A stretch of 49,200 nt of DNA from Peptococcaceae bacterium (lineage in GTDB: Bacteria; Bacillota; Desulfotomaculia; Desulfotomaculales; JACDOK01). Positions 4,618-47,229 of this stretch are shown here, in pieces. The translations under genes and the position numbers were made by a program. Under the pieces are notes generated by a model. It did not search any database. It was not told where the DNA came from and saw nothing but the letters and a program-made list of their open reading frames with translations. Positions within the stretch are counted from its first letter, which is position 1; each line of letters starts with the position of its first letter. The stretch covers positions 1-49,200 of the forward strand of contig JACDOK010000005.1 in the NCBI GenBank assembly GCA_017656185.1, given 5' to 3'.

Positions 4618-4622
4618 GCTTA

Positions 4623-5138: not shown

Positions 5139-5887
5139 TTTTTGACGTCTTAACGATTTTCCCTGAGATGTTTTGCGGCCCCCTGGAGAATAGTATTATT
5201 AAAAAGGCGCGTGAGAAAGGTCTTTTACGTGTTAATCTTATTGATATCCGCGATTACTCACGCGATAAGCACCGTAGTGTCGATGACACTCCTTACGGCG
5301 GCGGTGGTGGAATGGTAATGAACCCTCAACCTATTGTCGAGGCCGTAGAGAAGAGGTTGCAGCTTTATGAGGGTGACGTTCCGGTAATCCTGATGTGCCC
5401 GCAGGGACGCCGCTTCAACCAGGATGTAGCCCGTGAGTTAGCCCAGCATAAACAGATTATCCTGATCTGCGGTCATTATGAAGGCATCGATGAACGGGTA
5501 CGGGAGATCGTTGCTACTGATGAAATCTCTATTGGGGATTACGTGCTAACCGGGGGCGAACTCCCTGCTATGGTTATTATCGATGCCGTAGCCCGTTTTA
5601 TACCCGGGGTGCTGGGTGATCCTGAAGGAGCGGAAAAGGACTCTTATGCACAGGGGCTTTTAGAACATCCTCAATACACCAGACCCCGTAATTACCGGGG
5701 AAAAGAAGTACCGGAGGTGTTATTGAGCGGTCACCACGAAAACATTAGTACTTGGCGGCGCCGCGAGGCCCTGCTGCGGACCCTTGTACGACGGGATGAA
5801 ATGCTGAGCGATGCCGATCTTACCACCGAGGACCGGCGGTTTTTGAAGTGTTTAAAGGATAGACTTTCCGAACTCGGAGTGGATTAG
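5135..5887 (+). CDS. trmD: tRNA (guanine-N1-)-methyltransferase TrmD
   Basis: Methylates G37 at N1 in tRNAs with G36, using SAM, which prevents +1 frameshifting. It is a 250-residue SPOUT enzyme with [12 protein letters not shown] near residues 51-62, the knotted SAM site with [11 protein letters not shown] near residues 111-121, and [12 protein letters not shown] near residues 132-143. It overlaps rimM by four bases. A promoter follows this gene, so rplS can be expressed independently. Confidence 0.97.
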
Positions 5888-5904
5888 TCTTCTTAATGAA
5901 TCTC

Positions 5905-5934
5905 TTGCAAAAAAACGGAAGTTTGTGGTATCAT
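5905..5934 (+). promoter_or_regulatory. Promoter upstream of rplS
   Basis: TTGCAA at 5905-5910 and TATCAT at 5929-5934, spaced by 18 bases, in the 98-base gap between trmD and rplS. It would give rplS its own transcript with a leader of about 45 bases. Confidence 0.55.
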
Positions 5935-5985
5935 ATGTTTTGTTATTTATCTTAAAACAGTTTGCAAACGGGGAGGCACAAGATT

Positions 5986-6330
5986 ATGAATAATATAATG
6001 CGATCTGTTGCCGAAGAGCAGATGAGAAAGGATATTCCAGAATTTAGACCCGGAGACACGGTACGGGTGCATGTGCAGGTAGTAGAAGGCGGGCGGAAAA
6101 GAACCCAGGCCTTTACCGGTACCGTGATTAGGAGACGTGGTGGTGGTCTTAACGAAACTTTTACGGTACGTCGTGTATCCTACGGCGTAGGAGTCGAGCG
6201 TACCTTTTTACTGCATTCGCCGCGCTTGGAAAAGATTGAAGTGGTGCGTCGCGGTCGGGTCCGCCGCTCCAGATTGTACTACCTGCGAGGCCTCCGTGGC
6301 AAGGCGACACGGATCGCAGAACGTAAATAA
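5986..6330 (+). CDS. rplS: 50S ribosomal protein L19
   Basis: A 114-residue large-subunit protein at the 30S-50S interface. [20 protein letters not shown] near residues 19-38 and the basic C-terminus [16 protein letters not shown] fit the family. The frame is open from 5962, but the start at 5986 has GGGGAGG nine bases upstream and yields the standard N-terminus and length. A strong terminator follows. Confidence 0.97.
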
Positions 6331-6338
6331 CATTGTCT

Positions 6339-6365
6339 AAAGGGACTGCATAGCAGTCCCTTTTT
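6339..6365 (+). terminator. Rho-independent terminator after rplS
   Basis: AAAGGGACTGC pairs with GCAGTCCCTTT across a three-base loop (ATA) and runs into five or more T residues. It closes the ffh-to-rplS transcript. Confidence 0.9.
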
Positions 6366-6395
6366 GGATAATTATCAAGCTGCGGAGGTATCGTA

Positions 6396-6926
6396 GTGCA
6401 GATCTGGAGACAGAATCGTGGGTCGGTATTGGGTGAACTGGCGGAATCATTAATTATTGCTATAATCCTGGCGGTTTTAATCCGTTGGTTAATTTTTCAG
6501 CCTTTTTTCATCCCCTCCGGTTCTATGGAGCCAACTCTGATGACCGGTGATCGTATTATTGTGTCCAAGTTTAGCTACTGGCTAAACGAGCCGCAACGAG
6601 GAGATGTCATTGTCTTCAAGTACCCGCGTGATCCGAGCCGGGCCTTTGTAAAACGGGTCGTAGCTACCGAGGGTGAGACCATTGCCCTCGAGGAAAATCA
6701 ACTAATTATCAACGGGCAGCCCGTGCCAGAAAACTACCTGCCTGCCGATCTTACCTTTCCGGACTTCGGACCCGTCACTATTCCCGACGATCATCTATTT
6801 GTTTTGGGGGATAATCGTAATAACAGTGATGATAGCCGTGTTTGGGGATTCCTGGACGAAGACCTCATTATTGGTAAAGCAGTAGCGGTTTATTGGCCGG
6901 TATCAAGAATTAGGCTTATAGATTAG
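6396..6926 (+). CDS. lepB: Signal peptidase I (Ser-Lys type)
   Basis: Housekeeping membrane endopeptidase that removes signal peptides from exported proteins. It has one N-terminal membrane segment (about residues 15-37), the nucleophile Ser43 in SGSMEP, the general-base Lys86 in FVKRVVA and the GDNRNNSDDSRVWG box near residues 138-151. Length (176) is typical of Gram-positive enzymes. The start is GTG 6396 behind GCGGAGGT. The Ser-Lys dyad contrasts with the second, SipW-like Ser-His peptidase at 41424. It lies beside ylqF and rnhB, as in many Firmicutes. Confidence 0.96.
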   Translation: MQIWRQNRGSVLGELAESLIIAIILAVLIRWLIFQPFFIPSGSMEPTLMTGDRIIVSKFSYWLNEPQRGDVIVFKYPRDPSRAFVKRVVATEGETIALEENQLIINGQPVPENYLPADLTFPDFGPVTIPDDHLFVLGDNRNNSDDSRVWGFLDEDLIIGKAVAVYWPVSRIRLID

Positions 6927-7832: not shown

Positions 7833-8615
7833 ATGCACCATCCACGTCAGCTTACCGTCCGGGAGATAAAGATCATATTGGAGGGGCCTAAAACTCCTGA
7901 CCCGAATTTTTTACGTCTTTTGGCGCAAGACGGACGTAAAGGAGTGCAGGCCCTGTATAATCGCTATATGGCTAAGATGCTCGCACAACAGAAAGAGAAG
8001 GAGAGGTTAGCAGCTTTATTTAAGCCGGAGGTTGAGCTGTATTGCCGGGGTGTACGTCTGGTGGCCGGTGTTGATGAAGCGGGTAGGGGCCCGTTGGCCG
8101 GACCCGTAGTGGCCGCAGCGGTAATCTTTGCCGAACCTGTCTTCATTCCCGGTTTGAACGACTCTAAAAGGCTGTCTGGTACGGAACGCTTGCTGGTAGC
8201 GAAAGAAATCGCAAGCAAGGCTTTGGACTGGGGAATAGGAATCGTGACTGCCGAAGAAATCGGTTGTTTAAACATTCATCAAGCCAGTTTAGAGGCGATG
8301 CGCCGGGCGGTGGGTATTCTTAGAAATTGCCCGCAATGGGTATTGGTGGACGGCCGCTTTATGATCCCGGGATTGGATATTAAGCAGACCAGTATAGTTA
8401 AGGGGGATGCCCGGAGTGCTTCTATTGCCGGGGCGTCTATCCTGGCAAAGGTATTTCGTGACCGTGTGATGGAATGGAATCACCTTCAATTTCCGACTTA
8501 TGGTTTTGACCGGCATAAGGGTTATCCCACGCCGGAACATTTCGCGGTGCTGCAAAAACATGGACCGTGCCCCCTGCACCGGAAAGGTTTTAATCTTAGG
8601 ATAGCCCGGGGATAA
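7833..8615 (+). CDS. rnhB: Ribonuclease HII
   Basis: Cleaves RNA in RNA-DNA hybrids and single ribonucleotides in DNA. Catalytic Asp81 and Glu82 lie in VAGVDEAGRGPLAGPVV; further acidic residues are in LNDSKRL and LVDGRF. The 260 residues include a helical N-terminal extension of about 70 residues, as in B. subtilis RnhB. The C-terminal part carries SIAGASILAKVFRD and the YGFDRHKGYPT box. Confidence 0.96.
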   Translation: MHHPRQLTVREIKIILEGPKTPDPNFLRLLAQDGRKGVQALYNRYMAKMLAQQKEKERLAALFKPEVELYCRGVRLVAGVDEAGRGPLAGPVVAAAVIFAEPVFIPGLNDSKRLSGTERLLVAKEIASKALDWGIGIVTAEEIGCLNIHQASLEAMRRAVGILRNCPQWVLVDGRFMIPGLDIKQTSIVKGDARSASIAGASILAKVFRDRVMEWNHLQFPTYGFDRHKGYPTPEHFAVLQKHGPCPLHRKGFNLRIARG

Positions 8616-8634
8616 TCCGGCGTTAAAGGGTGAG

Positions 8635-8997
8635 ATGGTGGCACTGCGCAAGCGTCAAGGAAAAAGTGCAGAGGATTTGGCCGTTCAATTCTTGCGTAAA
8701 CGTGGTTTGACTATCCTGCAGCGTAATTACCGTTGCCGGATCGGGGAAATAGACATTATCGCCCTTGATGGTGATACCCTGGTGTTTGTCGAAGTCCGCT
8801 CCCGGTCCTCTTCCCGGTTCGGTTTTCCACAGGATACCGTAAATTTCCGCAAGCAGCAAAAATGTAAGCGGGTAGCTGAATGCTACCTGGTTTCGCGACA
8901 AAAAACCGCTTCGTTTTGCCGATTTGACGTGATAGGGGTATTATTTGACGATAACGGAAGACTCCAAAAGATAGAGCATATCATGGACGCCTTTTAG
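8635..8997 (+). CDS. yraN: YraN/UPF0102 family nuclease-fold protein
   Basis: A 120-residue protein of the YraN family, distantly related to Holliday-junction resolvases and restriction-endonuclease folds. RIGEIDIIALDGDTLVFVEV near residues 36-55 contains the conserved acidic D and E-x-K-like positions (here EVR). The true substrate is unknown. It sits downstream of rnhB and, but for the splB remnant, would adjoin yifB, which is the usual yraN-yifB order. Confidence 0.93.
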   Translation: MVALRKRQGKSAEDLAVQFLRKRGLTILQRNYRCRIGEIDIIALDGDTLVFVEVRSRSSSRFGFPQDTVNFRKQQKCKRVAECYLVSRQKTASFCRFDVIGVLFDDNGRLQKIEHIMDAF

Positions 8998-9010
8998 CCT
9001 ATCGGGATGG

Positions 9011-9274
9011 TCAGGATTGAGTGCTGGGTTCTTTTACCTCCAGGCGATTTATAAAGGCCGCCAATTCGTTAGGCTTTAAAACCTTAGTGTCCTGGTTGTG
9101 GTTTGACAGACGGCAAAGTAAGTCAAACATTGCCTCCGATTTATCATCGCTAATGTCCTCAACATAATCAGTCTGGTGGCATTTGTTAGCAGCCCACATG
9201 GCAAGTTCATCATAAGTAACGTATCCGTTAAGATGTAATTTAACCATACCTGCTACCACGTCGTGGGTGATCAT
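9011..9274 (-). CDS. Small unknown protein
   Basis: I do not recognise this 87-residue protein. I place the start at the ATG at 9274, where GGAGGTGAT lies six bases upstream on the minus strand; the open frame extends further but without a ribosome site. The product is acidic, probably helical and has a YVTYDELAMWAANK segment near residues 19-32. No membrane segment or signal peptide is visible. Its last codons coincide with a half copy of the TGAGTGCTGGGT repeat at 9018-9029, so the C-terminus EPSTQS may have been donated by the repeat. It lies downstream of the splB remnant on the same strand. Confidence 0.65.
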   Translation of the reverse strand: MITHDVVAGMVKLHLNGYVTYDELAMWAANKCHQTDYVEDISDDKSEAMFDLLCRLSNHNQDTKVLKPNELAAFINRLEVKEPSTQS

Positions 9275-9410
9275 TGCGGTATCACCTCCGCTTTCTGTAT
9301 TTGTTTGACTGTTTTTAGTATGCGGAGTGTACCGCGTTTCCACCCTGGTTGATGTTTGATCCGGCGGTTGCGACAGGTAACATGCGCAGTATTTTACCTG
9401 CGTACACGTT

Positions 9411-10428
9411 TTAAACAAAATAATCTATATGGGCTTTGGGAAACAGACGCGCAATGTTTTGATAGAGATAATCCCTGGCTATATTCAAGATTTCCTTGGG
9501 GTACACATATTTTACCATAACCAAATTGTCCTGTTTTATAAACTCTGTTTTCTGCTTCCATCGGGAGAGAAGTTTTTGGAAATATAACCCTGATGGTATC
9601 ACGTGCCCTGTCGGTAAAACGGTGGGTTATAAGTTCAAAAGTAAAATCCGCGTCTATCAAATCCCCACAAATTTGCCTTACTTTTTCCAATACCAGACGA
9701 TAATCCTGCTGCCACCCTTTCCGTAAGATTAATGGTGCTATAATAAAACCCGAAGGATAACCGGTTTTAATAACCTTTTTGACGGCCTTCAAGCGTTCTT
9801 CCAGACTAGGGGTTCCGTGTTCAAAGTTAGTGATGGTATTTTTAGCATTAATGCTGAACCTAAAACGGGTATGTCCCTGGTGATTAAGGCTTAGCAAAGG
9901 GTCAACCTCGGTATATTTAGTGACGAACCGGAAACGCCCGCCTTCTTATTGAGCAAAATAAATAATGCTGTTAGTAAGGGCCCGAGTATACGCCTCTGTG
10001 GGCGGATCAGAAGTACACGAACCTTCGAAAGTGACTATTTGGTCAGGGTGCTGCTTGATATACTCACCGGCCCGGGCGAGAATCTCTTCCTGATTGGCAA
10101 ACACCGTGATATAAGGTCTTTTCCCAAGGGTCGTATTTAGGTAACAGTACTCATAAAAACCTGCACAGCCTGAAAGAAGCGGCAGCTGGTAATCGGCAGA
10201 TGGTTTGGATGAAAGGAATTTACTGGTGTTTACGGTCGATACAACCAGAGTTCTCTTAGCGGCGATATAGCCTTTTCTGTTATCTTTGGGAATACCGGTA
10301 ACGCGCTGCCTGTGTTTCAAAATATAAACCGGAACACCCATTTTCTGAAACTTTATTTTTAACTTTTTCCCTAAAGGATAATCCAGGGCGCGCTGGCGAA
10401 TAAAGACCCGATCAGGTACAAATGGCAT
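9411..10428 (-). pseudogene. splB: Decayed spore photoproduct lyase (SplB)
   Basis: The conceptual product aligns along its whole length with SplB, the radical-SAM enzyme that repairs the thymine spore photoproduct at germination: start [20 protein letters not shown], middle FEGSCTSD, TRFRFSINA, end FPKAHIDYFV. Three lesions are visible. The radical-SAM cluster motif reads CAGFYEYC, where the middle cysteine of CxxxCxxC is tyrosine (TAT for TGT). An in-frame TAA at 9948-9946 replaces a codon after IIYFAQ, with homology continuing in the same frame. One extra base in the run at 9510-9513 shifts the last 33 codons. The family cannot bind its 4Fe-4S cluster without all three cysteines, so the gene should be dead. 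The 5' end overlaps the open upstream part of yifB by seven bases on the other strand. Confidence 0.92.
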
Positions 10429-36428: not shown

Positions 36429-36434
36429 CATAGC

Positions 36435-36476
36435 ATGACATGCCAATTATGTCATATTACATGACTAATGTCATGT
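36435..36476. promoter_or_regulatory. Two tandem palindromes, operator-like
   Basis: ATGACAT-N7-ATGTCAT at 36435-36455 and ACATGAC-TAAT-GTCATGT at 36459-36476. Both use the same half-site (ATGAC/GTCAT), with centres about 23 bases apart, near two DNA turns. They lie between the divergent small membrane protein and the surface locus. This pattern suits a dimeric regulator binding twice, possibly the NarL-type regulator at 40738; that link is inference. Confidence 0.6.
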
Positions 36477-36547
36477 TTTGTAAGAATACATGCCCCGCTG
36501 TGTGATATATTGGCAGGTACTCTAAAAATAGGAACGTGGGTGGTTAG

Positions 36548-36765
36548 CCGTAAATAAAGTTTTTTGCAACCATATAAAAATGGAAATGAAGTCGAAGAGA
36601 GTCGGTAAATTTTGGTACCCATCGACACTGTTTACGGGACAAGCGAATAATCTCTCTAGTATACTTGGATATCGGAAAGAAGCAACGAAGCGCGGCTGAG
36701 CTTTGGGCACCGGAGGTCGCGTGGAGTGAGTGGTGCAACCGGCCTTCTAAGAAGGCCGGTTTTTT
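36548..36765 (+). ncRNA. Candidate structured leader RNA with terminator
   Basis: CCGTAAA at 36548-36554 can pair with TTTACGG at 36631-36637, enclosing two hairpins: CCAT/ATGG at 36570-36583 and GTCGA/TCGAC at 36591-36626. A further 100 bases with many GC-rich complementary stretches end in a strong terminator at 36738-36765. This is the layout of a regulatory leader, but I could not match it to the core of any riboswitch or T-box I know. It precedes the truncated signal peptidase and the surface operon. Confidence 0.4.
36738..36765 (+). terminator. Terminator or attenuator before the surface locus
   Basis: A perfect ten-base stem ACCGGCCTTC / GAAGGCCGGT with loop TAA and six T residues. 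No gene lies between it and the preceding spacer start, so it probably acts on a leader transcript. Confidence 0.85.
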
Positions 36766-36802
36766 CACTTTCAGAGCTATGGTTTGCAGGAAGGGGTGCA
36801 TA

Positions 36803-37039
36803 GTGCCGCTGCTGCGCAAGGTCATTTCGGCGTTTTTGATTGGGATCTCTGTGCTGATGTTTATGGTGGCCTCGTATCTAGTTGTGGTTCGCCTGGCGGG
36901 TGAAACCCAGCCGGCTGTTTTTGGCTGGCGTATGTTTGTGGTTGCTACCTCTCTAACATGCGGAGTTTTTCAAAAAAATTCAGAGGGGGTTAGTGGATGT
37001 TTAAGGACAGGGAAAAAGGATGACTGCGGATTGCGTTAG
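36803..37039 (+). pseudogene. Truncated SipW-like signal peptidase remnant
   Basis: From GTG 36803 (site AGGAAGGGG) the product starts PLLRKVISAFLIGISVLMF with one membrane segment and continues AGETQPAVFGWRMFVVAT, which matches the start of SipW-type peptidases up to just before the catalytic SGSMEP motif. It then breaks off into unrelated residues (SLTCGVFQKNSEG) and stops at 37039. The catalytic Ser and His regions are missing, so a deletion seems to have removed most of the gene and joined it to the leader of the next one. An intact relative is at 41424. Confidence 0.7.
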
Positions 37040-37107
37040 CTTTCGCGATCCTGGCAGTCATCGCCGTCGGGACTCTGTTTGGGGTATGGAGCTATACGTC
37101 TGCTCAA
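36997..37107 (+). other. Leader of the 37108 gene interrupted by TGA
   Basis: ATG 36997, with AGGGGG upstream, opens FKDREKG and hits TGA at 37021-37023. In the same frame the reading continues LRIALAFAILAVIAVGTLFG and SYTSAQVENEA, a convincing signal peptide that runs into the coding region at 37108. One base change (for example CGA or TGG to TGA) explains it. A sequencing error is possible. Confidence 0.7.
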
Positions 37108-37833
37108 GTGGAGAACGAGGCTGAGCTCAAAATAGTTCCGTCTGAGGATGTCCTGATTGCGGTAGATTTACGTGATGACCTGCCTATTGAAATAGAACAG
37201 GGTTCTTCGGCTCAGGTTGGCACGATTACCAACAATATGTCTGAAACTATTAATGTGACAGTCAGCGGGGGGTTTGATTATGAAGGTATCCTATCATCGG
37301 GAGAGTCAACCGATCTTTTTAAAGAAATTTCCCTTTCTGAACCAACCGGCTCAAGATCCTATACAGGGCTAGTAATGGCCACTTGGGATGGCGGCAGTGC
37401 CGAAATCAACTTTGACGTTACAATTAATGTCACACCTGCACCAAAAACTACAGATATCAATGTTAATGCACTTGCAGTCCCAAGTAGCAGCACGCCTGGC
37501 AAGAACACTACCGATAAGGACGCTACAGGCGCAAACACGACCGGCGAGGGAGCTTCTGCCGGCAGCAATGCCAACACTGGTACTACCTCAGGTTCGGATA
37601 CCAGCAGCGACACCGGTACTGGTATCGGTACCGGCACTGACACCGGTACTGACAGTACCGGTAATGACACTAACACCGGTGCTACAGGCGGCAGTTCAAC
37701 CGGCGGAGGCGATAGCGCTGGGACAGCCAGTGGCAGTGGTGGTAATATGACCAGCAGCAACGACGGCGGTACCTCTTCGGCGGGAAATGATTCTGGAGCG
37801 ACGTCTTCCGGAGCGGAAACAAATAACCAATAG
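37108..37833 (+). CDS. Ser/Thr/Gly-rich surface protein (leader interrupted)
   Basis: The intact reading frame gives 241 residues: an N-terminal beta-sandwich-like domain (about 1-110, with repeated hydrophobic strands such as SAEINFDVTINVTP) and a low-complexity tail of some 115 residues rich in Gly, Ser, Thr, Asn and Asp. Such tails act as flexible cell-wall spanning stalks, but no LPXTG or SLH anchor is seen. The signal peptide is encoded upstream from 36997 behind an in-frame TGA; the GTG at 37108 has no ribosome site, so as it stands the protein may not be made or exported. Twelve bases separate it from the next gene. Confidence 0.65.
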   Translation: MENEAELKIVPSEDVLIAVDLRDDLPIEIEQGSSAQVGTITNNMSETINVTVSGGFDYEGILSSGESTDLFKEISLSEPTGSRSYTGLVMATWDGGSAEINFDVTINVTPAPKTTDINVNALAVPSSSTPGKNTTDKDATGANTTGEGASAGSNANTGTTSGSDTSSDTGTGIGTGTDTGTDSTGNDTNTGATGGSSTGGGDSAGTASGSGGNMTSSNDGGTSSAGNDSGATSSGAETNNQ

Positions 37834-37845
37834 GAGGCGCTGGTA

Positions 37846-39069
37846 ATGAGTAAAGCACCAGGTAAACATAAATCGAACATCTTGAGCAAGCCTTATCTTC
37901 CTATCGCCGTTACCATCCTGGCTTTATTGTTCATTGTCCTTACGTGGCATGCTTTTGCCACCCCGGTAGAGGTAAAAGAAGAAGTAACCACCCATACCCT
38001 TAAGCAGAACGTAACCTTTAATTATATGGTCACACCGAAACGGTCAACCCTTTACCCCGATCCGGTACCGTTCAATGACCAGAAGACCTACTTTACCCAG
38101 GTTACCGAGGGGTTAGAGGTGTCGGTGAAGGCCGACATTGCTTCCCAACCTCCCGTGCCGGTCGAAGGCACCTCCGAGGTACTTTTAAAGCTGCAGGCCG
38201 GGGAACTCTGGGAGCGGGAATACGTGTTGAGTCCGCAGCGGGAGTTTGAAGGCAACGGTACGCTTACCGTTGTGGACGATACCTTCGACGTGCCCCTGCA
38301 GAAAATTCTGGCGTTTACCAAGCAGGTGGAGGAAGAAACCAAAGTCTACCCCAGGGACGGTTACACCTTAAACATTACCCCGGTTGTCAAAGCCAAAGCT
38401 CTGGGGACCAGTGAGCCCTTGACCAATGAATTTACCCCGTCATTTTCCTTCAACCTTACCCAGCGCGAGCTGATCCCGCCGGAGGAATTGAAACAGGAGC
38501 AGAGTGCCGCCTTAACAGGCGTCAATGTCCTGCCCGGCATTATAAACGTCCTGGGGCTTGAGATGCCGGTTGTAACGGCAAGGTATGCCAGCAGTATACT
38601 GACCGTTTTTTATCTGATCCTCGCCGTCTGGCTCTTCAAATTGTACTTCAACAGCAGGCCCCGGTTATCGGATGTACAGGCCATCAACCGGCGCTACCGC
38701 GGGCGCATTGTCGCGGCCCGGAGCGGGATCATTGACCCGGATATGACGGTGATCCGCATGGCTACTTTCAAAGAACTCTTAAAGCTGGCGGACGAGAGAG
38801 ACAAGAGTATTATCTGCCTTAACGAGCAGGAAAACGGTAAGCCGGTTTGCCGTTACTGCGTTCCTGACGGTGAGACCCTTTACTGTTATATCGCGGCTGA
38901 TGAAACACCGGTGAAAAGGCCTCCGGCCCCTCGTTCCCTTAAGGAACGGGTTATTCCCAAGGAGGGAACCATTTCCTCGTTAGCACTGCTGCCATTGGCT
39001 GCAAAAAAAATATTGGTACCGAAGACATTACGGAGACGGCTCACTTTCCATGGTACCGGGTCCGGGTAG
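37846..39069 (+). CDS. DUF5305-type membrane protein
   Basis: A 407-residue protein with a membrane segment near residues 16-36, a long extracytoplasmic beta-rich domain (about 40-235), a second membrane segment (about 246-266, ASSILTVFYLILAVWLF) and a cytoplasmic tail of 140 residues with a Cys cluster (CRYCVPDGETLYCYI). This layout fits DUF5305 proteins, which accompany archaeal-type and SipW-type signal peptidases. It may be an accessory or scaffold for the secreted fibres. ATG follows AGGAGG. The stop overlaps the kinase start. Confidence 0.8.
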   Translation: MSKAPGKHKSNILSKPYLPIAVTILALLFIVLTWHAFATPVEVKEEVTTHTLKQNVTFNYMVTPKRSTLYPDPVPFNDQKTYFTQVTEGLEVSVKADIASQPPVPVEGTSEVLLKLQAGELWEREYVLSPQREFEGNGTLTVVDDTFDVPLQKILAFTKQVEEETKVYPRDGYTLNITPVVKAKALGTSEPLTNEFTPSFSFNLTQRELIPPEELKQEQSAALTGVNVLPGIINVLGLEMPVVTARYASSILTVFYLILAVWLFKLYFNSRPRLSDVQAINRRYRGRIVAARSGIIDPDMTVIRMATFKELLKLADERDKSIICLNEQENGKPVCRYCVPDGETLYCYIAADETPVKRPPAPRSLKERVIPKEGTISSLALLPLAAKKILVPKTLRRRLTFHGTGSG

Positions 39070-40757
39070 TGCCGCAAGATGTCTTGCAGGGCCGCCGGGC
39101 CTTGGTGCTGTACCGGTATATTTCCTGGTTTTTAACATCGACTTTTTACCTTATTGCCGAACCGGATTCCCCGTTACTTTTTAAGGTAGGGGTAGTTGCT
39201 ACCCTGCTTGTGGCGGGCCGGATTGCCGTACACCTTTACGAACACAGCAGCGGAACGGCACTCAACACCCTGGGGCTGATCACTGTTGAAACCGCAGGCA
39301 TTGCCCTATTGCTGGTGCCCACTGGAGGCCTCGACAGCCCTTTCATGTGGTACGCCCTGAACCCCATCTTTATGGCGGCCACCATGTTGCCGGGTCCGTA
39401 CTGCTGGGGCGTCTTGACGGTCTTTTTGGCCGCGGCCTCAGCCGGTAGTGCCTACGTTTACGGGCAGGTGGTAGTAACTGCCTGGCGGGAAAATTCCTGG
39501 CTGCTGCTGGTATTCCTCTTGCTCACCGCGGCGGGTCAGGTTTTTACCCGGCTTGTCAGGCACCTGTCGCAGGCCTATGAGGACCTTGCCGGCGCTCACC
39601 GGTCAACGGAACGTTCGTTGGAACATATTGCGGCGTTATACCAGGCGCTGGAATCATTTTCGAGCAGGGATGACCCGCGCTGCCTGGCCGGATTGCTGGC
39701 ACATTATGCCAGGAAATTGACTGCTTCCCGCGCTGCTGTTTGTTATCTGACCCAGGACGACGGCAGTACCCAGTTAGAAGCGTCGGATCCCGATGGGTTC
39801 TTATCGGACATTGTTCAAAAACAAGATACGCTGGACAAGATATGGAAACAGGTGGAAGAAGGGAAAGAGAACGTATATTGTTTACTGCTTGATCAAAAAG
39901 AATTAACCGGTCAATTAGTTTATGTTCCGGTACAGTCGCCCAGTACGCGTTTTGGGTTTCTGGGGTATTTAACAACCCCATCGGATACTCCTCCCTTGGG
40001 GAATGGAAGGCGGGCATTGGTTTTTCTGGCCGAACTGGGGGCCATCGTGCTGGAGCGCCGCAAGGCCGAAGACCTGGCGGCGCGCCTGCTGGTTGCCGAA
40101 GAGCAGAACCGCATTGCGAACGAGATCCATGACGGGGTAGCGCAGCATCTTTTCAGTATTGTTTTTGCGCTGCACGCCCTGGCTCAGAAGGATGCCGGGC
40201 TGCAGGATGAAGAAGTGCAGCGGCAGCTAACTTTGGTAAAAAAGGCGGCTAACCAGGCTGCTCGTGAGCTGCGGGCCTCCATTTACCGCATCAGCCCGCG
40301 CCGGCGCGGCGAGCAGGTCTTTGTAGCAGGGGTTTCTTCATATCTGAAAGGTCTGGCACAGCTTAACGGCATTAAAGTTGATTTTCAGGTCGAAGGATCG
40401 GAAGAAGCGGTTAGCCCTGCTTTACGGAAGGCACTCTATCGCATCATCCGTGAGGCAACTTCCAATGCCATCCGGCACGGAAAGTGCAGCAGCATTAAGG
40501 TGGTCTTAAAAATGGCGCCGGGAAAAGTAATGTTAGAAGTAGTCGATGACGGGAACGGTTTCGACGTACAGCAAAAAGGAAGCGGCCTGGGACTGAGCAA
40601 CATGCGCAGCCTTATGGCCTCCTTCCGCGGCAGCTTTACCGTCACCAGCAAGCCTGGCAAGGGAGTCCGGGTTACCTGCATGGTACCCGCCGGTGACTGT
40701 CAATCTCCAGTAGACGCGAATACAGGGGGTGCTGAGATTGAAAGTTGTGGTCGTTGA
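39069..40757 (+). CDS. NarL-type sensor histidine kinase
   Basis: A 562-residue kinase with about five to six membrane segments in residues 10-150, a GAF-like middle (about 190-330) and the HisKA_3 phospho-acceptor His364 in NEIHDGVAQHLF, followed by an HATPase domain with N box EATSNAIRHG, DDGNGF and GLGLSNMRS. It lacks a clear extracellular sensor loop, so a membrane-borne or cytosolic GAF signal is likely. GTG 39069 overlaps the stop of the previous gene, and the 3' end overlaps the regulator, so three genes are coupled. Confidence 0.92.
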   Translation: MPQDVLQGRRALVLYRYISWFLTSTFYLIAEPDSPLLFKVGVVATLLVAGRIAVHLYEHSSGTALNTLGLITVETAGIALLLVPTGGLDSPFMWYALNPIFMAATMLPGPYCWGVLTVFLAAASAGSAYVYGQVVVTAWRENSWLLLVFLLLTAAGQVFTRLVRHLSQAYEDLAGAHRSTERSLEHIAALYQALESFSSRDDPRCLAGLLAHYARKLTASRAAVCYLTQDDGSTQLEASDPDGFLSDIVQKQDTLDKIWKQVEEGKENVYCLLLDQKELTGQLVYVPVQSPSTRFGFLGYLTTPSDTPPLGNGRRALVFLAELGAIVLERRKAEDLAARLLVAEEQNRIANEIHDGVAQHLFSIVFALHALAQKDAGLQDEEVQRQLTLVKKAANQAARELRASIYRISPRRRGEQVFVAGVSSYLKGLAQLNGIKVDFQVEGSEEAVSPALRKALYRIIREATSNAIRHGKCSSIKVVLKMAPGKVMLEVVDDGNGFDVQQKGSGLGLSNMRSLMASFRGSFTVTSKPGKGVRVTCMVPAGDCQSPVDANTGGAEIESCGR

Positions 40758-41385
40758 TGACCACCTGCTGGTTTGGGAAGGCATCAAGGCAGTCTTCGAA
40801 CCGGTAGAGGATTTCAAGCTGGCCGGTTGGGCCAGCAACGGGCATGAGGCGGAACAGCTCTTTGCTGCAGCACAGCCGGATATCGCCCTGGTAGATCTTC
40901 GCCTGCCGGGAGAATACGGCATTGAGATTATTAAAAAGGTGCGTTCCTTGGCACCGGGATGCCGGTTCGTGGTTCTGACAACTTATGGTGATGCGGAGGA
41001 TATCAAGCGGGCCTTGGATGCCGGCGTTGACGGCTACCTGCTCAAAGAAGCCCTGCCGGAAGAGATGACCACCGCCCTGCGCCTGGTGGGGCGCGGACGC
41101 CCCTATTTTGACCCTGCCGTAATGCAGTTCGTAATGCATCAACCGAGTGATGACAAAGATGGATTATCCGAATTGACGGAGCGGGAACGCGAAGTCCTCC
41201 GGGCCCTGGCCCGGGGGTTGAGCAACAAAGAGATTGCCGGGCTGCTCTGCGTGACGGAGCACACCGTTAAAAAGCACATCAGCAGCATCTTGGGCAAGCT
41301 TGAACTAAAAGACCGTACCCAGGCGGCTCTATACGCCGTGGCGCACGGGATAGGGCGCTCTGGGACCAGTTTAGCTACGTTCTAA
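40738..41385 (+). CDS. NarL/FixJ-family response regulator
   Basis: A 215-residue regulator with a receiver domain (acidic pair DD near residues 7-8, phospho-acceptor Asp53 in LVDLRLPG, Lys105-like K in LLKEA) and a C-terminal LuxR HTH (LTEREREVLRALARGLSNKEIAGLLCVTEHTVKKHISS). TTG 40738 is seven bases from AGGGGG; GTG 40729 is possible. It overlaps the kinase end and most likely controls this surface locus; the palindromes at 36435 are a candidate target. Confidence 0.92.
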   Translation: MKVVVVDDHLLVWEGIKAVFEPVEDFKLAGWASNGHEAEQLFAAAQPDIALVDLRLPGEYGIEIIKKVRSLAPGCRFVVLTTYGDAEDIKRALDAGVDGYLLKEALPEEMTTALRLVGRGRPYFDPAVMQFVMHQPSDDKDGLSELTEREREVLRALARGLSNKEIAGLLCVTEHTVKKHISSILGKLELKDRTQAALYAVAHGIGRSGTSLATF

Positions 41386-41423
41386 ATGTCCAACTCCAAA
41401 TTTCCAATGAAGGAGACGATACA

Positions 41424-42530
41424 TTGCCCAAAACACTGCGCGTGATCGGTAATGTTTTGCTGTATATCGTGGTCGGCCTGGTATTAGTGTCGGCGGTAGG
41501 CACCGTGATTTTAAAGCACCCCTTCTTACTGGCTCCCATCAGGTCCGACAGCATGTACCCCCTTTTTGAGCGGGGAGACGTGGTTTTCATCCGCTCTGCT
41601 GACGGTACTGATGCCGCCGTTGGAGATATCATTGTCTTTCATCCTGAAGGCGGCAGCTTGGCCGGGCAGGGTTTTGTAATGCACCGTATTGTAGGGGGTA
41701 CCGCCGCCGAGGGGTTTATCACCAAAGGTGACGCAAACGAGCGTACGGATCAGGAGGACGGCACTTCCCTTGTTAAGGCGGGTGCCATTTCCGCCCGGGC
41801 CATTACCATAGCAGGACGTCCACTGCGCATCAGGTTGCTGGGTTACCTATCTCTCTGGATGGAGCAGTTTCAGAAAAGTCCCTACGCCCTACCTGGATGT
41901 ATGGGAGCAGTGGCCCTGGTACTGATTATTACGGAACTTAAAGACCGGGGTAAGCAGAAACGGAAAAACCAATCCACCCCGGCCTATGTTGTCTATCCCG
42001 CCGCCGGGTTGGCCATCTGCCTGATGCTGGGCGCGGCACAAATAGCCGCCAGCTCCTTTCCCACCCTGCAGTACGAGGTGTCAGCCACCGGGCGCGGTGT
42101 GCTGATAGGCAGCGCGGTGGGGGTTTTGCAGCAGGGAGACGTTTTTACGCGTGACATATCTGAGATAGGCGGTAACGGTTTTCTCCCCATGGTTGCCTCG
42201 ATATCTACTCACGACTCTCAGCTAACTTTTAACAAGGACCTGGTGGTAACTAGGCCGGGAACGAAGGAGAAGATCTCCGTTACGGTACATGCCCGGCAGG
42301 TGGGCGAGTACCAAAGTAAAGTGTCCATAGGTATGTTTTTACCGACTTTGCCGCCGGTGCTGATCCACGAGCTGGCGCAAAAGAGCTACTGGCTGGCCCT
42401 GGGCGCGGTTTCCCTTGTCCCCGGCCTACCGCTGATATTGTGGCCTGTTGTTGCCCCCCGGTTGCGGCGTCTAATGGCCCGCGCCACCCGCAAGCGTATC
42501 GCCAAGGTAAGCCAAAGAATTATTCCGTAA
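41424..42530 (+). CDS. SipW-like (ER-type) signal peptidase with C-terminal extension
   Basis: A 368-residue S26B peptidase. Nucleophile Ser43 is in SDSMYP and the base is His87 in VMHRIVG, so this is a Ser-His enzyme, unlike LepB at 6396. SipW enzymes process TasA/CalY-type fibre proteins. The catalytic part ends near residue 150. It is followed by more membrane segments (about 157-173, 190-210 and 335-353) and an external beta-rich domain (about 212-325). That extension is absent from usual SipW proteins of about 190 residues. TTG 41424 follows AAGGAG. The stop lies in a heptad array. Confidence 0.87.
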   Translation: MPKTLRVIGNVLLYIVVGLVLVSAVGTVILKHPFLLAPIRSDSMYPLFERGDVVFIRSADGTDAAVGDIIVFHPEGGSLAGQGFVMHRIVGGTAAEGFITKGDANERTDQEDGTSLVKAGAISARAITIAGRPLRIRLLGYLSLWMEQFQKSPYALPGCMGAVALVLIITELKDRGKQKRKNQSTPAYVVYPAAGLAICLMLGAAQIAASSFPTLQYEVSATGRGVLIGSAVGVLQQGDVFTRDISEIGGNGFLPMVASISTHDSQLTFNKDLVVTRPGTKEKISVTVHARQVGEYQSKVSIGMFLPTLPPVLIHELAQKSYWLALGAVSLVPGLPLILWPVVAPRLRRLMARATRKRIAKVSQRIIP

Positions 42531-42575
42531 GGAGTAAGGCGTGAGACGTGAGGAGTGAGGATTAAATAGTAAACA
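42527..42575 (+). repeat. Heptanucleotide array after the SipW-like gene
   Basis: Units GTAAGGA, GTAAGGC, GTGAGAC, GTGAGGA, GTGAGGA, then weaker TTAAATA and GTAAACA. The TAA in the first unit is the stop codon of the SipW-like gene. Confidence 0.85.
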
Positions 42576-42628
42576 GTTTCCCATGCCGATTTCATCCGGT
42601 ACCACGAAGCATGAAAATAAACGTAAGC

Positions 42629-42681
42629 TCACCTACGGGGGTTCCCTTTGCGCTCACGTTCCGCGACTACCCAGCACTCAG
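42629..42681 (-). repeat. Composite intergenic repeat, copy 2 (inverted)
   Basis: Reverse complement of the block at 127-186, with the same order TGAGTGCTGGGTAG, CGGAACGTGAGCGC, GGGAACCCCCGT and about five differences. Confidence 0.8.
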
Positions 42682-42716
42682 GTAAGCTCAGAATACAAGC
42701 CCAGCTGAGTACTGGG
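42670..42716. repeat. Short palindromic element (about 47 bp)
   Basis: Begins CCCAGCACTCAGGTAAGC and ends CTGAGTACTGGG. Its left end is shared with the composite repeat at 42629. Confidence 0.75.
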
Positions 42717-42723
42717 CTCAAAT

Positions 42724-42821
42724 CCAGCACTCAGTGCTGGGTAATGAATAATTAGGCTACAAAAAACTCATTGGATAAAAGAATAGACTTTAAAAACTTC
42801 TTTTACTGGCTGAGTGCTGGG
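42724..42821. repeat. 98-bp palindromic-end element, copy C
   Basis: Left end CCAGCACTCAGTGCTGGG is itself a palindrome, and the right end GGCTGAGTGCTGGG restores the terminal repeat. Length matches copies A and B, but the AT-rich interior is different, suggesting a separate subfamily. Confidence 0.68.
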
Positions 42822-43455
42822 CTGATCTTCGCCCTTCGTCGTTCTTTTGAATAGGTTCCAAGATCGCGCTCCGGGAAGCCCCCGTGCACGCCTTAAAGTG
42901 TATATCTTTGGGGCATAAGTTTTCAGACACCGGTATTTTCGAGGTAGTAAACAGAGATATGAAAAAGGGACGGGCTACTTTTTTGCCGCAGCGACCAAGT
43001 AATTAAATCTAAATTTAACATCCGGACTTTTTATGATGCGATTAGCGTACGGTATCCCTCAAAAAGTTGCCGGTCCCCTTTTTCTTCGGGGAGACCTTCT
43101 GTGGTTTCCCGTTGGCCCTAAAGGAATACCCTAAATCCAATCTCCACTGTCCAATTTAGAGACCCTAGAGGAATGTTCCGAATTTCCCCCTATCGATACT
43201 ATCCTGTTCATCCCGTCCAATCAAAATGACCTGGTACCAAGGTCTACCCCGGGATGGGAAGTTTGATTACGCACTTTTCACTTCGAGCTACCATACTTAC
43301 TCACTTCACGTACCCCCTAAGACGGTACAATTGCGACCGGTAAAACTACTCTTTGGCGCGATGTATAAAACTACTGCCTTCTGTAAAATGAGCAACGGAT
43401 GCACTGATAAGTGCACTAAGAAAAAAATTTTAAAATTTTAAGGAGGTAGGTGGTT

Positions 43456-44019
43456 TTGCGTAAGGGTCTATTGTTAGTCGTAGCTTTGTTGGCGATGTCG
43501 TGTTTGCTGGCGGCGGCGGCGTATACTTCGGCGACGGTGACGAACTATTCACAGATCGCCGTAGTAAACTCCAGTACTGCCCTGCTGGCTCTCGACGACG
43601 CAAACAATGCGCAAACTGGGTTCGAGGATTGTACTGCATATGATGACAGCGACATGCTAAAGTTCCGCTTCGGGTGGAATAACAATCAGCAGTACGGTTT
43701 GCAGCGGGACAGTGTGTACGAGTGGTACGATGAAAAGACTGCCGGAGACGCAACTGATGATTTAGGATTGTTTACCATTACGAACAACTCTGCTGACGAC
43801 GTCAAGGTAACTATTTCGGAAAACAATGCTACTTCCGGCGTAACGTTTTCTTTCCGCCAGAATGTGGATAATGACGTTACTGGTTGGCAGCAGGATACTA
43901 TTCAGTTCAGCTTAGAGGCTGGAACAACAGCTCAAGTCGGTGTCAAGATTCAAGTAGCCGATGATGCCACGCTTGAGTCGCCTAACTTCGATATCACCGT
44001 TAGTGCAGTTGCTGAGTAG
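43456..44019 (+). CDS. TasA/CalY-like secreted protein, paralogue 1
   Basis: A 187-residue protein with a SipW-type signal peptide (RKGLLLVVALLAMSCLLAAA, then AYTSATVTNYSQIA), whose predicted cleavage lies near residue 20-22. The mature part is beta-rich, acidic and Asn-rich with FRFGWNNNQQYGLQRDSVY, LFTITNNSADDVKV and a final NFDITVSAV strand, as in TasA/camelysin-type subunits of fibres. I choose TTG 43456, nine bases from AGGAGG. It is likely a substrate of the peptidase at 41424. No anchor is seen. Confidence 0.82.
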   Translation: MRKGLLLVVALLAMSCLLAAAAYTSATVTNYSQIAVVNSSTALLALDDANNAQTGFEDCTAYDDSDMLKFRFGWNNNQQYGLQRDSVYEWYDEKTAGDATDDLGLFTITNNSADDVKVTISENNATSGVTFSFRQNVDNDVTGWQQDTIQFSLEAGTTAQVGVKIQVADDATLESPNFDITVSAVAE

Positions 44020-44070
44020 TAAAGTTCAGTGATGAAAAGATAAGTCTGTAGTTTCAGAAAGAAAAACAGA

Positions 44071-44120
44071 AAAACCCCTTGGGAGCAGATGACCTAAATA
44101 ATCAATCCCCAAGGGGTTTT
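44071..44120. terminator. Terminator between the two TasA-like genes
   Basis: AAAACCCCTTGGG and CCCCAAGGGGTTTT pair around a loop of about 23 bases. It would separate or attenuate transcription between the paralogues. Confidence 0.75.
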
Positions 44121-44175
44121 CCTTAAAGCTCCTTGGTATTGCAGCTATACAGAGGATAATAGGGAGGTGAAAGGC

Positions 44176-44769
44176 TTGAAGAGAGCGTTAGTCTTGGTGG
44201 TAGCTCTACTAGCGGTATCGTGCTTGCTCGCTGCGGCGGCATATACTTCGGCAACAGTTACTAACTATTCGCAGATTGCGATAAACAACACTAATGCATC
44301 CATCCTGGAGCTAGATGAGCAGTTGAGCCTTGTGACAGGATTTAAAGATGCAACTGCGTATAATGATCAGGCCATGCTGAAATTCCGGTTCGGATGGAAC
44401 AATGGTACGCAGCATGGTTTGCAGCGGGACAGTGTCTATACGTGGTGGGACAATAGTAATAAGGTAGGCTTGTTTGCCGTGAAAAATAACTCGGCTGATA
44501 AGGTCAGACTTACTTTCACCGAAAACTACAGTGACGATCAAGTAACTTTTGAGTTCTTGCAGTATTTGCCGGCTTGGCCGAATGGTACAGCAGCCCAACG
44601 TAACACGACTTCCGATAGCGGTTGGCAAGATGCAGGTTATAACAGCTATGAGCCGCTGTACCCTGGGGAAACCGCCCGGATAGGTGTGAGAATTACCTCG
44701 TCTGATACTGCGAGTGTATCCGGTCCTTTAGACTTTGACATCAACGTCAGCGCAACTCCAGTACTGTAG
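44176..44769 (+). CDS. TasA/CalY-like secreted protein, paralogue 2
   Basis: A 197-residue paralogue of the preceding gene. The signal peptide is nearly identical (ALVLVVALLAVSCLLAAAA, then YTSATVTNYSQIA), the core FRFGWNNGTQHGLQRDSVYTW and LFAVKNNSADKV segments are shared, and a short insertion (LPAWPNGTAAQRNTTSDSG) extends the second half. Start TTG 44176, eight bases from AGGGAGG. Probably exported and cleaved by the SipW-like enzyme and assembled with its paralogue. Confidence 0.82.
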   Translation: MKRALVLVVALLAVSCLLAAAAYTSATVTNYSQIAINNTNASILELDEQLSLVTGFKDATAYNDQAMLKFRFGWNNGTQHGLQRDSVYTWWDNSNKVGLFAVKNNSADKVRLTFTENYSDDQVTFEFLQYLPAWPNGTAAQRNTTSDSGWQDAGYNSYEPLYPGETARIGVRITSSDTASVSGPLDFDINVSATPVL

Positions 44770-44927
44770 GTACAAAGGGGTCAGGTCTTAATATATGACA
44801 CAATTGTGTTAGCAGATTTGGCCAACCCAATTTTAACACTTGCTTTAAGAGTGTCTCTTGAGGTTTGCAGTAGTTGTCTTTCCTCGAGCGGTATCAGGTA
44901 CCTAACTTTACTAAACTTACTGAACTT

Positions 44928-44967
44928 AAAAGCCCTTAAGTACCATCGCCATACTCAGGGGCTTTTT
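44928..44967 (+). terminator. Terminator after TasA-like paralogue 2
   Basis: AAAAGCCCTTAAGTA pairs with TACTCAGGGGCTTTTT with small internal mismatches. A sister copy lies at 45386. Confidence 0.85.
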
Positions 44968-44999
44968 CTCTACACCTAACGCCTTACCTCACAGTGAAT

Positions 45000-45055
45000 T
45001 GCTCACTCCTTAATCCTCCCTGCTCCCTGCTTCCTGTTTACTGTTCACTCCTTTA
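45000..45055 (-). repeat. Heptanucleotide array, eight units, minus orientation
   Basis: In-phase TGCTCAC, TCCTTAA, TCCTCCC, TGCTCCC, TGCTTCC, TGTTTAC, TGTTCAC, TCCTTTA. Reverse complements match the plus-strand family. Confidence 0.8.
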
Positions 45056-45089
45056 TCTGGTACTAAAGTCTACCCCCCAATATTCCAAT

Positions 45090-45312
45090 GTGGTTGTAGT
45101 CTTATTGGCAGTATCCTGCTTATTGGCCGCGGCGGCATATACATAGTTGGGATTGGGGTACCCAAGGTACGAACTATACTCCTCCGCAGAACACTTTAGC
45201 TCCCGGTTGTTCCATGGAAATCGGTGTCAAGGTTTCAGTTGGTGACGAAACCGATCTCTCCTTGCCCAATGACTACAGTGGTACCATCGTCGTAAATGCT
45301 GAGGCACAATAA
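45090..45312 (+). pseudogene. Relic of a third TasA-like paralogue
   Basis: GTG 45090 opens VVVLLAVSCLLAAAAYT, the same signal peptide as in the two intact genes, and stops at TAG 45144. The middle of the gene is missing. From about 45171 another frame reads NYTPPQNTLAPG, then MEIGVKVSVGDE and the ending GTIVVNAEAQ, which matches the last strands of the intact paralogues (compare QVGVKIQVAD and FDITVSAVAE). It is followed by the same terminator type. Confidence 0.83.
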
Positions 45313-45660
45313 GCACGCAATTTTCCTCTCACGGGAAAATACGTGCACAAGTACCTAACTTACTAACTTATTAAACCAACCACAGAAAGCCCTTGAGTGC
45401 GAACATTATAATTACCCGTACTCAGGGGCTTTAATGACCTGATAACCGGCCTAACACTTTTTAGCGTTTATACCTCTTTGTCTCGCCTTAGGTTTGTTCT
45501 TTAGACCAACGAGTACGTTAGAAGTGCTCAGTAGTGGTAATCAAAAGTATTCCTTCGTAGTCCTAAAATGTAAACTTATGTAGTCGTGTTTCTGTGCCGG
45601 AAATATCTTACACTTTAGATGTAGCCATATGGGAAAATATAGATGAAAGGAGGTGAATAT
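45313..45660. other. Spacer between the relic and the SLH gene
   Basis: Contains a hairpin at 45313-45348 (GCACG...ATTTTCC and GGGAAAAT...CGTGC), a terminator at 45386 and the SLH upstream region. No gene seen. Confidence 0.65.
45386..45432 (+). terminator. Terminator after the TasA-like relic
   Basis: AAAGCCCTTGAGTGCG pairs with CGTACTCAGGGGCTTT. It is a diverged duplicate of the terminator at 44928. Confidence 0.82.
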
Positions 45661-47229
45661 TTGAAGCGACTTGTTCTACTGGGTTTGGTTCTGTTTTTTG
45701 CGATGGCGTGTCTGATGGGAGTAATGGCCAGCGGTGTATCGCCAACCAGTAATGACGTAGCAGTATATGCAGAACCCGGGTGGCTGGCTCTCGAACCGAC
45801 CAGGAACGGGCCCATCAAATGGGCCGGCGGCACTAAGTATCTCGTTGGGTATGCCGACCACACGGCATGGGTGGGCGAGGACGGAAAACTGCATTTTGAC
45901 TTTAGAAAGGGCGCGGACGGACTGTTATATGGTTTCCAGCCAGGAAGCTATTACGAGTTTGATATGCTTTTTAAGATAATCAACAAAAGAGACGAAAACA
46001 TTTGTGTATCCATTGACGTAGAAAACATGGGTGCTTACAGGGAGTATATATTGATCGGTGCCCAGAAGAGTTGGACTTTAGAAAAAGAGTTCACGCCAGG
46101 AGACCATTCTTCTTTCCCGTGGCCAAACAAAGATAAAGAAAGACAAATAGCAGCGGGCGATCACATGTGGGTTTTGGTGCACTTTGATATTCCGCCGGAC
46201 GCTGAATCATTGGGACCGGTATCCGGAAAGATGGTCATAAGGGCCAGGGCATGTGACGAGGATACCGGCGGCAACGGCGGCAGGAACGGCAAACCACCCA
46301 GTGTCGATGGTGTGCCGGATGGCGTGTTCATAGCCCGCTGGCCCGGTCACATCCCACTAGTTACGAGAGCAGTAAAGCTGGAAGAGCCGAAGCCTGAGTT
46401 TACCGCGGACATAACGGCTGACCCCGAAACGTTGGCAGAAGCAAGAGCCAAGGGACTGGAGCCCAGGGTATATATCTGGAATGAGAACTTCCACAAGTGG
46501 GTCGCCTTAGCGTCTTACCCACAGCCCGACGGGACAGTGAAGGCCATCAATGACGGCAATTACACCGGTTGGACGGCCGTGTTTGCCGTGCGCCAGCCCA
46601 GGTTCATCGACCTGACACCGACGGACTGGTACGAACCGGTGCTCAACCGGGCGAATGGTCTCGCCCTCATAGAAGGCCACCCGGCCGATCCCTGGTGTTC
46701 CGGGAGCCTGGCTCGGCTGGCCAAACCACATGCACAGATGACGCGAGCCGAGTATGTGGTAATGGTTACCCGTGCCCTGGGCTTGGTACACGAAGAAGAA
46801 CAGAAAATGCACGACGTATTGCAGTATGTGCCTTCGGAACAGGTTAACGCGGTGCTTCAAGGACGATTTAGCGATGCCGGTAAGATCCCCGCGTGGTGCC
46901 GCAAAGCAATAGCCACAGCCGTTAATTCCGGCCTCCTGGACGGTGTGGGCGGAATGGAAACGGAATTTGGCCCGTCTGTGCCGGTAACCCGCGTCCAGGC
47001 CGCCGTCATCGCCAGCAGCGCCCTGGCGAAAGTACCCGGATATGGATTTAAGCCTGCCGACCTTTCACTGTTTAAAGACGCCGCAGAAGTCCCGTCCTGG
47101 GCTGTCGGCAAGGTGGCACAAGGTGTTTTGGTGGGGAATTCGGACGGGACCCTGGGTCCGAATAACCCGATCACCAGGGCGGAAACGTACACCGTGTTTC
47201 TGCGGCTCCTGCGCGGCCTAGGATGGTAA
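45661..47229 (+). CDS. SLH-domain surface protein with TasA-like N-terminal domain
   Basis: A 522-residue exported protein. The signal peptide (KRLVLLGLVLFFAMACLMGVM) is followed by a domain (about 30-190) with the order of motifs seen in the TasA-like paralogues: LHFDFRKGADGLLYGFQPGS, then LFKIINKRDENICVSI, then a strand-rich end. A linker follows, and the last 180 residues form SLH repeats (DLTPTDWYEPVLNRANGLALIEGHP; FSDAGKIPAWCRKAIATAV; FKDAAEVPSWAVGKVAQGVL with ITRAETYTVFLRLL) that bind cell-wall polymers. It may anchor the fibre to the wall. TTG 45661 is five bases from AGGAGGTG. The stop is inside a heptad array. Confidence 0.86.
   Translation: MKRLVLLGLVLFFAMACLMGVMASGVSPTSNDVAVYAEPGWLALEPTRNGPIKWAGGTKYLVGYADHTAWVGEDGKLHFDFRKGADGLLYGFQPGSYYEFDMLFKIINKRDENICVSIDVENMGAYREYILIGAQKSWTLEKEFTPGDHSSFPWPNKDKERQIAAGDHMWVLVHFDIPPDAESLGPVSGKMVIRARACDEDTGGNGGRNGKPPSVDGVPDGVFIARWPGHIPLVTRAVKLEEPKPEFTADITADPETLAEARAKGLEPRVYIWNENFHKWVALASYPQPDGTVKAINDGNYTGWTAVFAVRQPRFIDLTPTDWYEPVLNRANGLALIEGHPADPWCSGSLARLAKPHAQMTRAEYVVMVTRALGLVHEEEQKMHDVLQYVPSEQVNAVLQGRFSDAGKIPAWCRKAIATAVNSGLLDGVGGMETEFGPSVPVTRVQAAVIASSALAKVPGYGFKPADLSLFKDAAEVPSWAVGKVAQGVLVGNSDGTLGPNNPITRAETYTVFLRLLRGLGW

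Follow-up and report, generated by a model that had tools for sequence, protein, structure and literature searches.

Gene content of the locus

Between 36.4 and 47.2 kb of a 49,200-nucleotide stretch (the window) of contig JACDOK010000005.1, from an anaerobic Peptococcaceae bacterium, lies a conserved gene set, most likely for the production of protein fibres at the cell surface. All genes of this locus, from a cyclic di-GMP (c-di-GMP) riboswitch with its terminator through to an SLH protein, are on the plus strand, in the order small subunit, DUF5305 protein, histidine kinase, NarL regulator, extended SipW-type signal peptidase, fibre subunit and SLH protein. The main features are the following, where ER stands for endoplasmic reticulum and bp for base pairs.

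36669..36753, plus strand: c-di-GMP-II riboswitch aptamer, GAG variant (RF03169 and RF01786 matches)
36737..36761, plus strand: intrinsic terminator, an 11-bp stem followed by a T run, with its 5' arm within the aptamer 3' strand
37024..37833 (approximate), plus strand: small secreted subunit, TapA-like candidate, with a Ser/Thr/Gly-rich tail and a profile match to the fibre subunits
37846..39069, plus strand: DUF5305 membrane protein (PF17231, 52 bits against a gathering cut-off of 29, E 8.5e-14)
39069..40757, plus strand: membrane histidine kinase (HisKA_3 and HATPase)
40729..41385, plus strand: NarL/LuxR-type response regulator, by family matches
41424..42530, plus strand: ER/archaeal-type signal peptidase (SipW-like) with a C-terminal extension (TIGR02228, Sec11)
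43450..44019, plus strand: fibre-subunit paralogue 1, 55% identical to paralogue 2
44167..44769, plus strand: fibre-subunit paralogue 2, with a structure model whose fold matches donor-strand pilins
45090..45312, plus strand: dead third paralogue, a signal peptide and a stop, then the C-terminus in a different frame
45661..47229, plus strand: anchor candidate, with a signal peptide, a fibre-subunit-like domain (to about 46260), a linker and SLH repeats

The original prediction for this DNA had listed a DUF5305-type membrane protein, a NarL-type kinase and regulator, an ER-type signal peptidase, two secreted paralogues with a dead third, and an SLH protein. Every one of these elements is present and the gene calls are right in substance; the HisKA_3/HATPase kinase adjoins a receiver-GerE regulator, as in NarL/LiaSR-type pairs, and the signal part and the C-terminus of the third paralogue lie in separate frames. 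The end of the SLH gene at 47229 stands, and its start is probably TTG 45661 just behind AGGAGG, not ATG 45643. Two members of the set had been overlooked, namely the riboswitch with its terminator that heads the operon, and the small secreted subunit.

The individual parts are of known kinds, and their combination appears to be undescribed. We consider it fairly probable that the locus is a c-di-GMP-gated and sensor-controlled operon, which produces a SipW-dependent surface fibre and anchors it to the wall.

Conservation and co-occurrence across genomes

The gene order is fully identical in three genomes of three genera, i.e. in the window and in the comparison loci L013 and L040 (L- and G-numbers denote comparison loci and genomes). 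L013 belongs to a Desulfotomaculum metagenome-assembled genome (MAG) and came, like L014 (a Peptococcaceae MAG) and L015 (a Clostridia MAG), from a scan of a genome collection; L040 was found by a whole-genome search. Partial or rearranged gene sets occur in L014 and L070-L077, covering several more families. Even at the distant loci L072, L075, L076 and L077 the small subunit, the DUF5305 protein, the kinase and the regulator are kept beside the extended peptidase.

The peptidase extension and the subunit family occur together in a near-perfect manner, in line with the expected co-occurrence of these families in other genomes. A profile search of 113 genomes of the class found both in the same four genomes and in no others (hypergeometric 1.6e-7). 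In the phylum (398 genomes), the extension turned up in 10 genomes and the subunits in 6, all six of which also have the extension (hypergeometric 4e-11); both hypergeometric counts ignore shared ancestry. Five of the six subunit-positive genomes encode the subunits close to the peptidase, at distances of a few kb and mostly of about 3 kb or less; in the sixth (G239), whose assembly is fragmented, the two are on separate contigs.

The SLH protein and its possible role in wall anchoring

The SLH protein carries a domain homologous to the fibre subunits. Its C-terminal part matches PF00395 with 66.8 bits, with two SLH repeats over the cut-off and a degenerate first one. The N-terminal domain (about the first 180 mature residues), which had been described as resembling the paralogues, matches the subunits in a profile comparison (hhalign E 1.2e-19 over 168 columns), and the L014 subunit bridges the fibre subunits and the SLH protein domain (E 2e-14 and 1e-10); the direct pairwise comparison of domain and subunit is not significant. 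The SLH protein does not have the N-terminal strand Y-x-x-A-x-V of the subunits.

The genome also encodes CsaB (TIGR03609, 242.8 bits against a cut-off of 213.1), which makes the pyruvylated polymer bound by SLH domains, and further SLH proteins are encoded on five other contigs. The SLH protein could hold the base of the fibre on the pyruvylated wall polymer. Two relatives of its N-terminal domain come without SLH repeats: the one at L074 ends in a membrane segment followed by RKRR and the one at L070 runs off its contig. The domain thus occurs with more than one kind of C-terminus, as would be expected for an anchored base.

Alternatively, the SLH protein might have come from a duplicated fibre gene and be a tip, a cap or an S-layer protein in its own right. 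The missing Y-x-x-A-x-V strand would agree with such a role, as growth could be terminated at either end depending on the polarity of the fibre. But in all cases where the sequence reaches the end of the gene, the domain is joined to a wall- or membrane-binding C-terminus (SLH in three genomes, a membrane segment in L074), and this fits a base anchor better. We hence regard a tip, cap or S-layer role as rather unlikely. For the question of how TasA-type fibres are attached to the Gram-positive wall, a fusion of subunit and SLH repeats, with relatives on another C-terminus, allows a direct test of base anchoring. The SLH fragment next to the operon in L071, which contains no domain like the fibre subunits, was left aside.

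The c-di-GMP riboswitch and the two-component system

The aptamer passes the gathering threshold of RF03169 (45.1 bits, threshold 40) and is slightly below that of RF01786 (51.1 bits, E 2.7e-10, threshold 53.5). No other c-di-GMP-II aptamer turned up in the genome, which encodes 9 GGDEF domains. The expression platform adjoins the aptamer, and the terminator is a strong one, with its stem computed at -18 kcal/mol. Because the terminator starts inside the 3' strand of the aptamer, the bound aptamer and the terminator would be mutually exclusive, i.e. the layout is ligand-ON. We infer that the riboswitch is an ON switch, in which the predicted binding of c-di-GMP to the leader would keep the overlapping terminator from forming, so that transcription could proceed into the operon; it would supply a defined on-signal for the fibre locus. 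The same overlap of aptamer and terminator is seen at L072, L073, L045 and L046, each time just 5' of the operon or of its regulator. A partial search of the literature found no paper linking a c-di-GMP riboswitch to SipW fibres.

The kinase and the NarL regulator would provide a second input, which probably drives the fibre genes, perhaps via a conserved box upstream of them (TGGTACYAARGTNTA). Two copies of the box were found:

43232..43246, plus strand: conserved box TGGTACCAAGGTCTA, about 210 bp 5' of the first fibre gene
45058..45072, plus strand: second copy of the conserved box, 5' of the dead third paralogue

The box lies about 200-220 bp ahead of the fibre gene in all three full loci (window, L013 and L040) and has no further copy in the window. 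Only 0.08 matches are expected per window even with one mismatch allowed, for a motif that was defined only after the alignment had been seen.

The membrane part of the kinase contains a GGLDSPF motif, which we take to resemble the sensor loop of RegB/PrrB with the consensus GGxxNPF. A redox or quinone input to the kinase is our guess. L046 encodes a protein closely related to the kinase (phmmer 3e-189) next to one of the canonical SipW/DUF5305 loci of the Clostridia, and LuxR-type regulators adjoin many other canonical SipW loci. At L046 (227-8636) the relatives of both the kinase and the regulator stand behind a c-di-GMP-II riboswitch and precede the canonical locus.

The extended signal peptidase and the DUF5305 protein

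The peptidase is of the ER type and has an extension outside the known families, as had been suggested. It passes the TIGR02228 cut-off (70.6 bits, cut-off 51.85), and Ser43, His87, Asp103 and Asp109 are invariant in an alignment of 9 proteins. The closest solved structures to its profile are human SEC11C (E 5e-14) and SEC11A (E 6e-12). With NF046067, the NCBI equivalog model of Bacillus SipW, it scores 26 bits against a cut-off of 190, so that this model does not class it as an ortholog of Bacillus SipW. The genome has no other archaeal-type signal peptidase above the cut-off. A second signal-peptidase-like gene in the window (6396-6926, match 6459-6668) scores 35 bits, below the archaeal-type cut-off, and probably encodes an ordinary signal peptidase.

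The C-terminal ~200 residues of the peptidase are conserved among its relatives and match no curated family of Pfam or NCBIfam above the cut-off. They contain about three more hydrophobic segments and, by the predicted topology, an extracellular domain (about residues 212-320) between the last two. The DUF5305 protein has two hydrophobic segments (residues 20-38 and about 250-268) that, according to hydropathy, flank an extracellular domain. We also considered that the extension might be related to DUF5305, which was rejected with an hhalign probability of 0.2%. The extracellular domain of the peptidase may, together with the DUF5305 protein, hold or fold the fresh subunits, which makes both of them candidate assembly factors. 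No paper mentioning DUF5305 was found in the partial literature search.

A single open reading frame (ORF) at L073 (7121-9346) covers a kinase and an extended peptidase. It was not used as fusion evidence for a joint function; the L073 locus has probably decayed by deletion, since the regulator is missing there and the DUF5305 gene is interrupted.

Predicted fibre subunits and their proposed assembly

The subunits share A-x-A-Y-x-x-A-x-V around the end of the signal peptide, a motif that suggests cleavage between A-x-A and the Tyr by the dedicated ER-type peptidase. According to the available text of PMC10269814, aromatic residues right after the cut point hinder the ordinary signal peptidase and TasA requires SipW; the subunits carry an invariant Tyr where they are probably cut, which recalls this hindrance.

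The structure model of the mature paralogue is all beta, with a predicted local distance difference test score (pLDDT) of 74 and a predicted template-modelling score (pTM) of 0.74. Its first nine matches in the PDB are the bundling pili 7ueg, FimA variants and the Sulfolobus thread 7pnb (E 4e-4 to 4e-3, template-modelling (TM) scores 0.40-0.49). The model of the SLH protein N-terminal domain (pLDDT 69.5) has FimA as its first match and 7ueg at rank 8. Both models thus match donor-strand pilins first, at low TM-scores. The original interpretation is supported in so far as neither unrelated folds nor missing co-occurrence, the two outcomes it had named as speaking against it, was found. Its "TasA/CalY-like" label for the paralogues draws on fold and context and finds no backing in the family models. 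The model has low confidence over the first eight mature residues of the paralogue; a free strand would be expected to look like this, though low confidence by itself proves nothing.

The small secreted subunit matches the profile of the fibre-subunit family (E 5e-13, partly contributed by the signal peptide). It begins with Y-[TS]-[SN]-A like the fibre subunits, on a shorter body, and has YTSAxVxN in common with them. Intact homologues are encoded at L013 (5871-6308) and L040 (11621-12085). Our label TapA-like denotes a candidate for a protein that works like TapA, with an N-terminal strand shared with the fibre subunit, and not membership in the TapA family.

TasA and the archaeal bundling pili are both described as donor-strand-built fibres in the available text of the papers cited here. 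By analogy of fold, we infer that the mature subunits are incomplete beta-sandwiches, whose conserved N-terminal strand Y-x-x-A-x-V would let them polymerise by donor-strand complementation. The small subunit, with the same strand, may act like TapA and start the fibre.

Several observations weigh against a SipW-dependent fibre controlled in this way. The paralogues have no Pfam or NCBIfam match to camelysin/TasA or to the SipW signal model (TIGR04088) at E up to 1, and at E up to 10 neither their homologues nor, with NCBIfam, the paralogues themselves have one. These camelysin/TasA models are narrow, as the tested subunits of canonical clostridial SipW loci also miss their cut-offs. The TM-scores of the paralogue and SLH-domain models to pilins (0.34-0.49) are under the usual 0.5, so that the donor-strand fold stays a strong hint; the confidence of both models is moderate, and TasA itself is not among the top 50 listed fold matches. 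A sequence match of a subunit to the solved pilin 9p0a_C (E 7e-5 with the signal peptide, 0.015 without) vanished with a 10-sequence profile and was dropped. c-di-GMP-II aptamers were not found at L013, even under a lax threshold, or at L040, though both share the whole gene order. Finally, when the small gene is read from ATG 36997, codon 9 is an in-frame TGA (37021-37023) where the relatives carry TAC, with CTG 37024 right behind it; the gene either starts at the non-ATG codon CTG 37024, is read by stop and restart, or is damaged.

The locus might instead be a cluster of secreted surface proteins that form no fibres. After processing by SipW, the subunits would then serve as matrix proteins or associate with the S-layer, binding to the wall or to one another, and the SLH protein would be no more than a related surface protein. 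Beta-sandwiches of the immunoglobulin (Ig) type are common, and both the low TM-scores and the missing camelysin match speak for such a cluster. However, at the top of the fold matches for the subunit model stand subunits of donor-strand fibres and not generic Ig proteins, and the fibre subunits and the small subunit have an invariant N-terminal segment in common. Dedicated ER-type peptidases also go with fibre systems in Bacillus and Clostridium perfringens, as far as described in the available text of PMC9674648 and PMC7395162. We therefore judge a cluster without fibres to be unlikely. That the locus is degenerating and no longer functional here, as the dead third subunit, the in-frame TGA and the stray ORF that follows the riboswitch could suggest, is quite improbable, since the remaining genes are all intact and well conserved, two intact subunit paralogues are present, and CTG 37024 could act as a start that yields a full signal peptide.

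Going beyond a wall-anchored fibre in this organism, we tentatively propose, as possible rather than probable, an undescribed class of Gram-positive donor-strand fibres. At its base, such a fibre would have a subunit joined to an anchor that can be exchanged, with SLH repeats here and a membrane segment elsewhere; the peptidase would both cleave and hold the subunits, and a c-di-GMP riboswitch would turn the system on.

Comparison with known systems

The locus may work like the TasA and BsaA systems. It shares with the tapA-sipW-tasA operon of Bacillus subtilis (PMC9674648, PMC10151520) a dedicated ER-type peptidase, secreted beta-sandwich subunits (here by model), a biofilm context and a small accessory subunit with the N-terminal strand of the fibre subunit. 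The first residues that TapA and TasA of B. subtilis have in common are given as AFHDI/AFNDI in the available text of PMC10151520. Unlike in B. subtilis, TapA is replaced here by a different small subunit and an SLH-fused subunit, and there are an extended peptidase, a DUF5305 protein, an adjacent two-component system and a c-di-GMP riboswitch but no detectable camelysin match.

The sipW-bsaABCRSD operon of C. perfringens, as described in the available text of PMC7395162, also combines SipW, several secreted proteins and a kinase/regulator pair; BsaA forms the filament and BsaR binds the sipW promoter. A two-component system beside sipW, which had been put forward as distinguishing, is thus present here and is already known from BsaRS. 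For that operon, this text mentions neither a DUF5305 protein nor an SLH anchor nor a c-di-GMP riboswitch, a comparison made by description only.

Among the best fold matches, the bundling pili of Pyrobaculum calidifontis (7ueg) and the Sulfolobus thread (7pnb, PMC9715654) are donor-strand fibres made from exported precursors. They differ in being archaeal and in having a sequence identity below 10%. We know of no SLH anchor for either of these fibres.

The canonical SipW-DUF5305-camelysin-like loci of Clostridia of the same class (L041-L050, L052) resemble the locus in that SipW adjoins DUF5305, usually with several secreted subunits. A LuxR-type regulator is often near, and some have a c-di-GMP riboswitch (L045 and L046, with a marginal c-di-GMP-I in L047). 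They differ in that their subunit signals end in AAW/KWS-type motifs and their SipW proteins have no C-terminal extension but an unrelated N-terminal membrane extension of ~290 residues ahead of the peptidase domain.

Other features of the region

Two further features are found around the riboswitch:

36434..36475, strand not assigned: cluster of ATGACAT/ATGTCAT-type repeats, candidate regulator-binding region 5' of the riboswitch
36779..37039, plus strand: short hydrophobic ORF between the riboswitch and the operon

Six of the 14 ATGACAT/ATGTCAT matches in the 49 kb window (some overlapping) are packed into ~40 bases. By its sequence, this cluster is probably a regulator-binding region; it is not seen ahead of the small gene in L013 or L040. 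No relative was found for the short ORF, and the idea that it is a remnant of a SipW N-terminus was dropped, as it matches neither SipW nor any other ORF.

At L074, tandem c-di-GMP-I riboswitches (8609-8871) precede a gene for a transglutaminase-like secreted protein and a Tad-pilus-type cluster (209-6904), downstream of the fibre genes. The canonical SipW locus L041 has, instead of an SLH protein, genes for an LPFTG-type surface protein and a sortase-like protein next to it (7970-9577), which might be a sortase-based alternative anchor.

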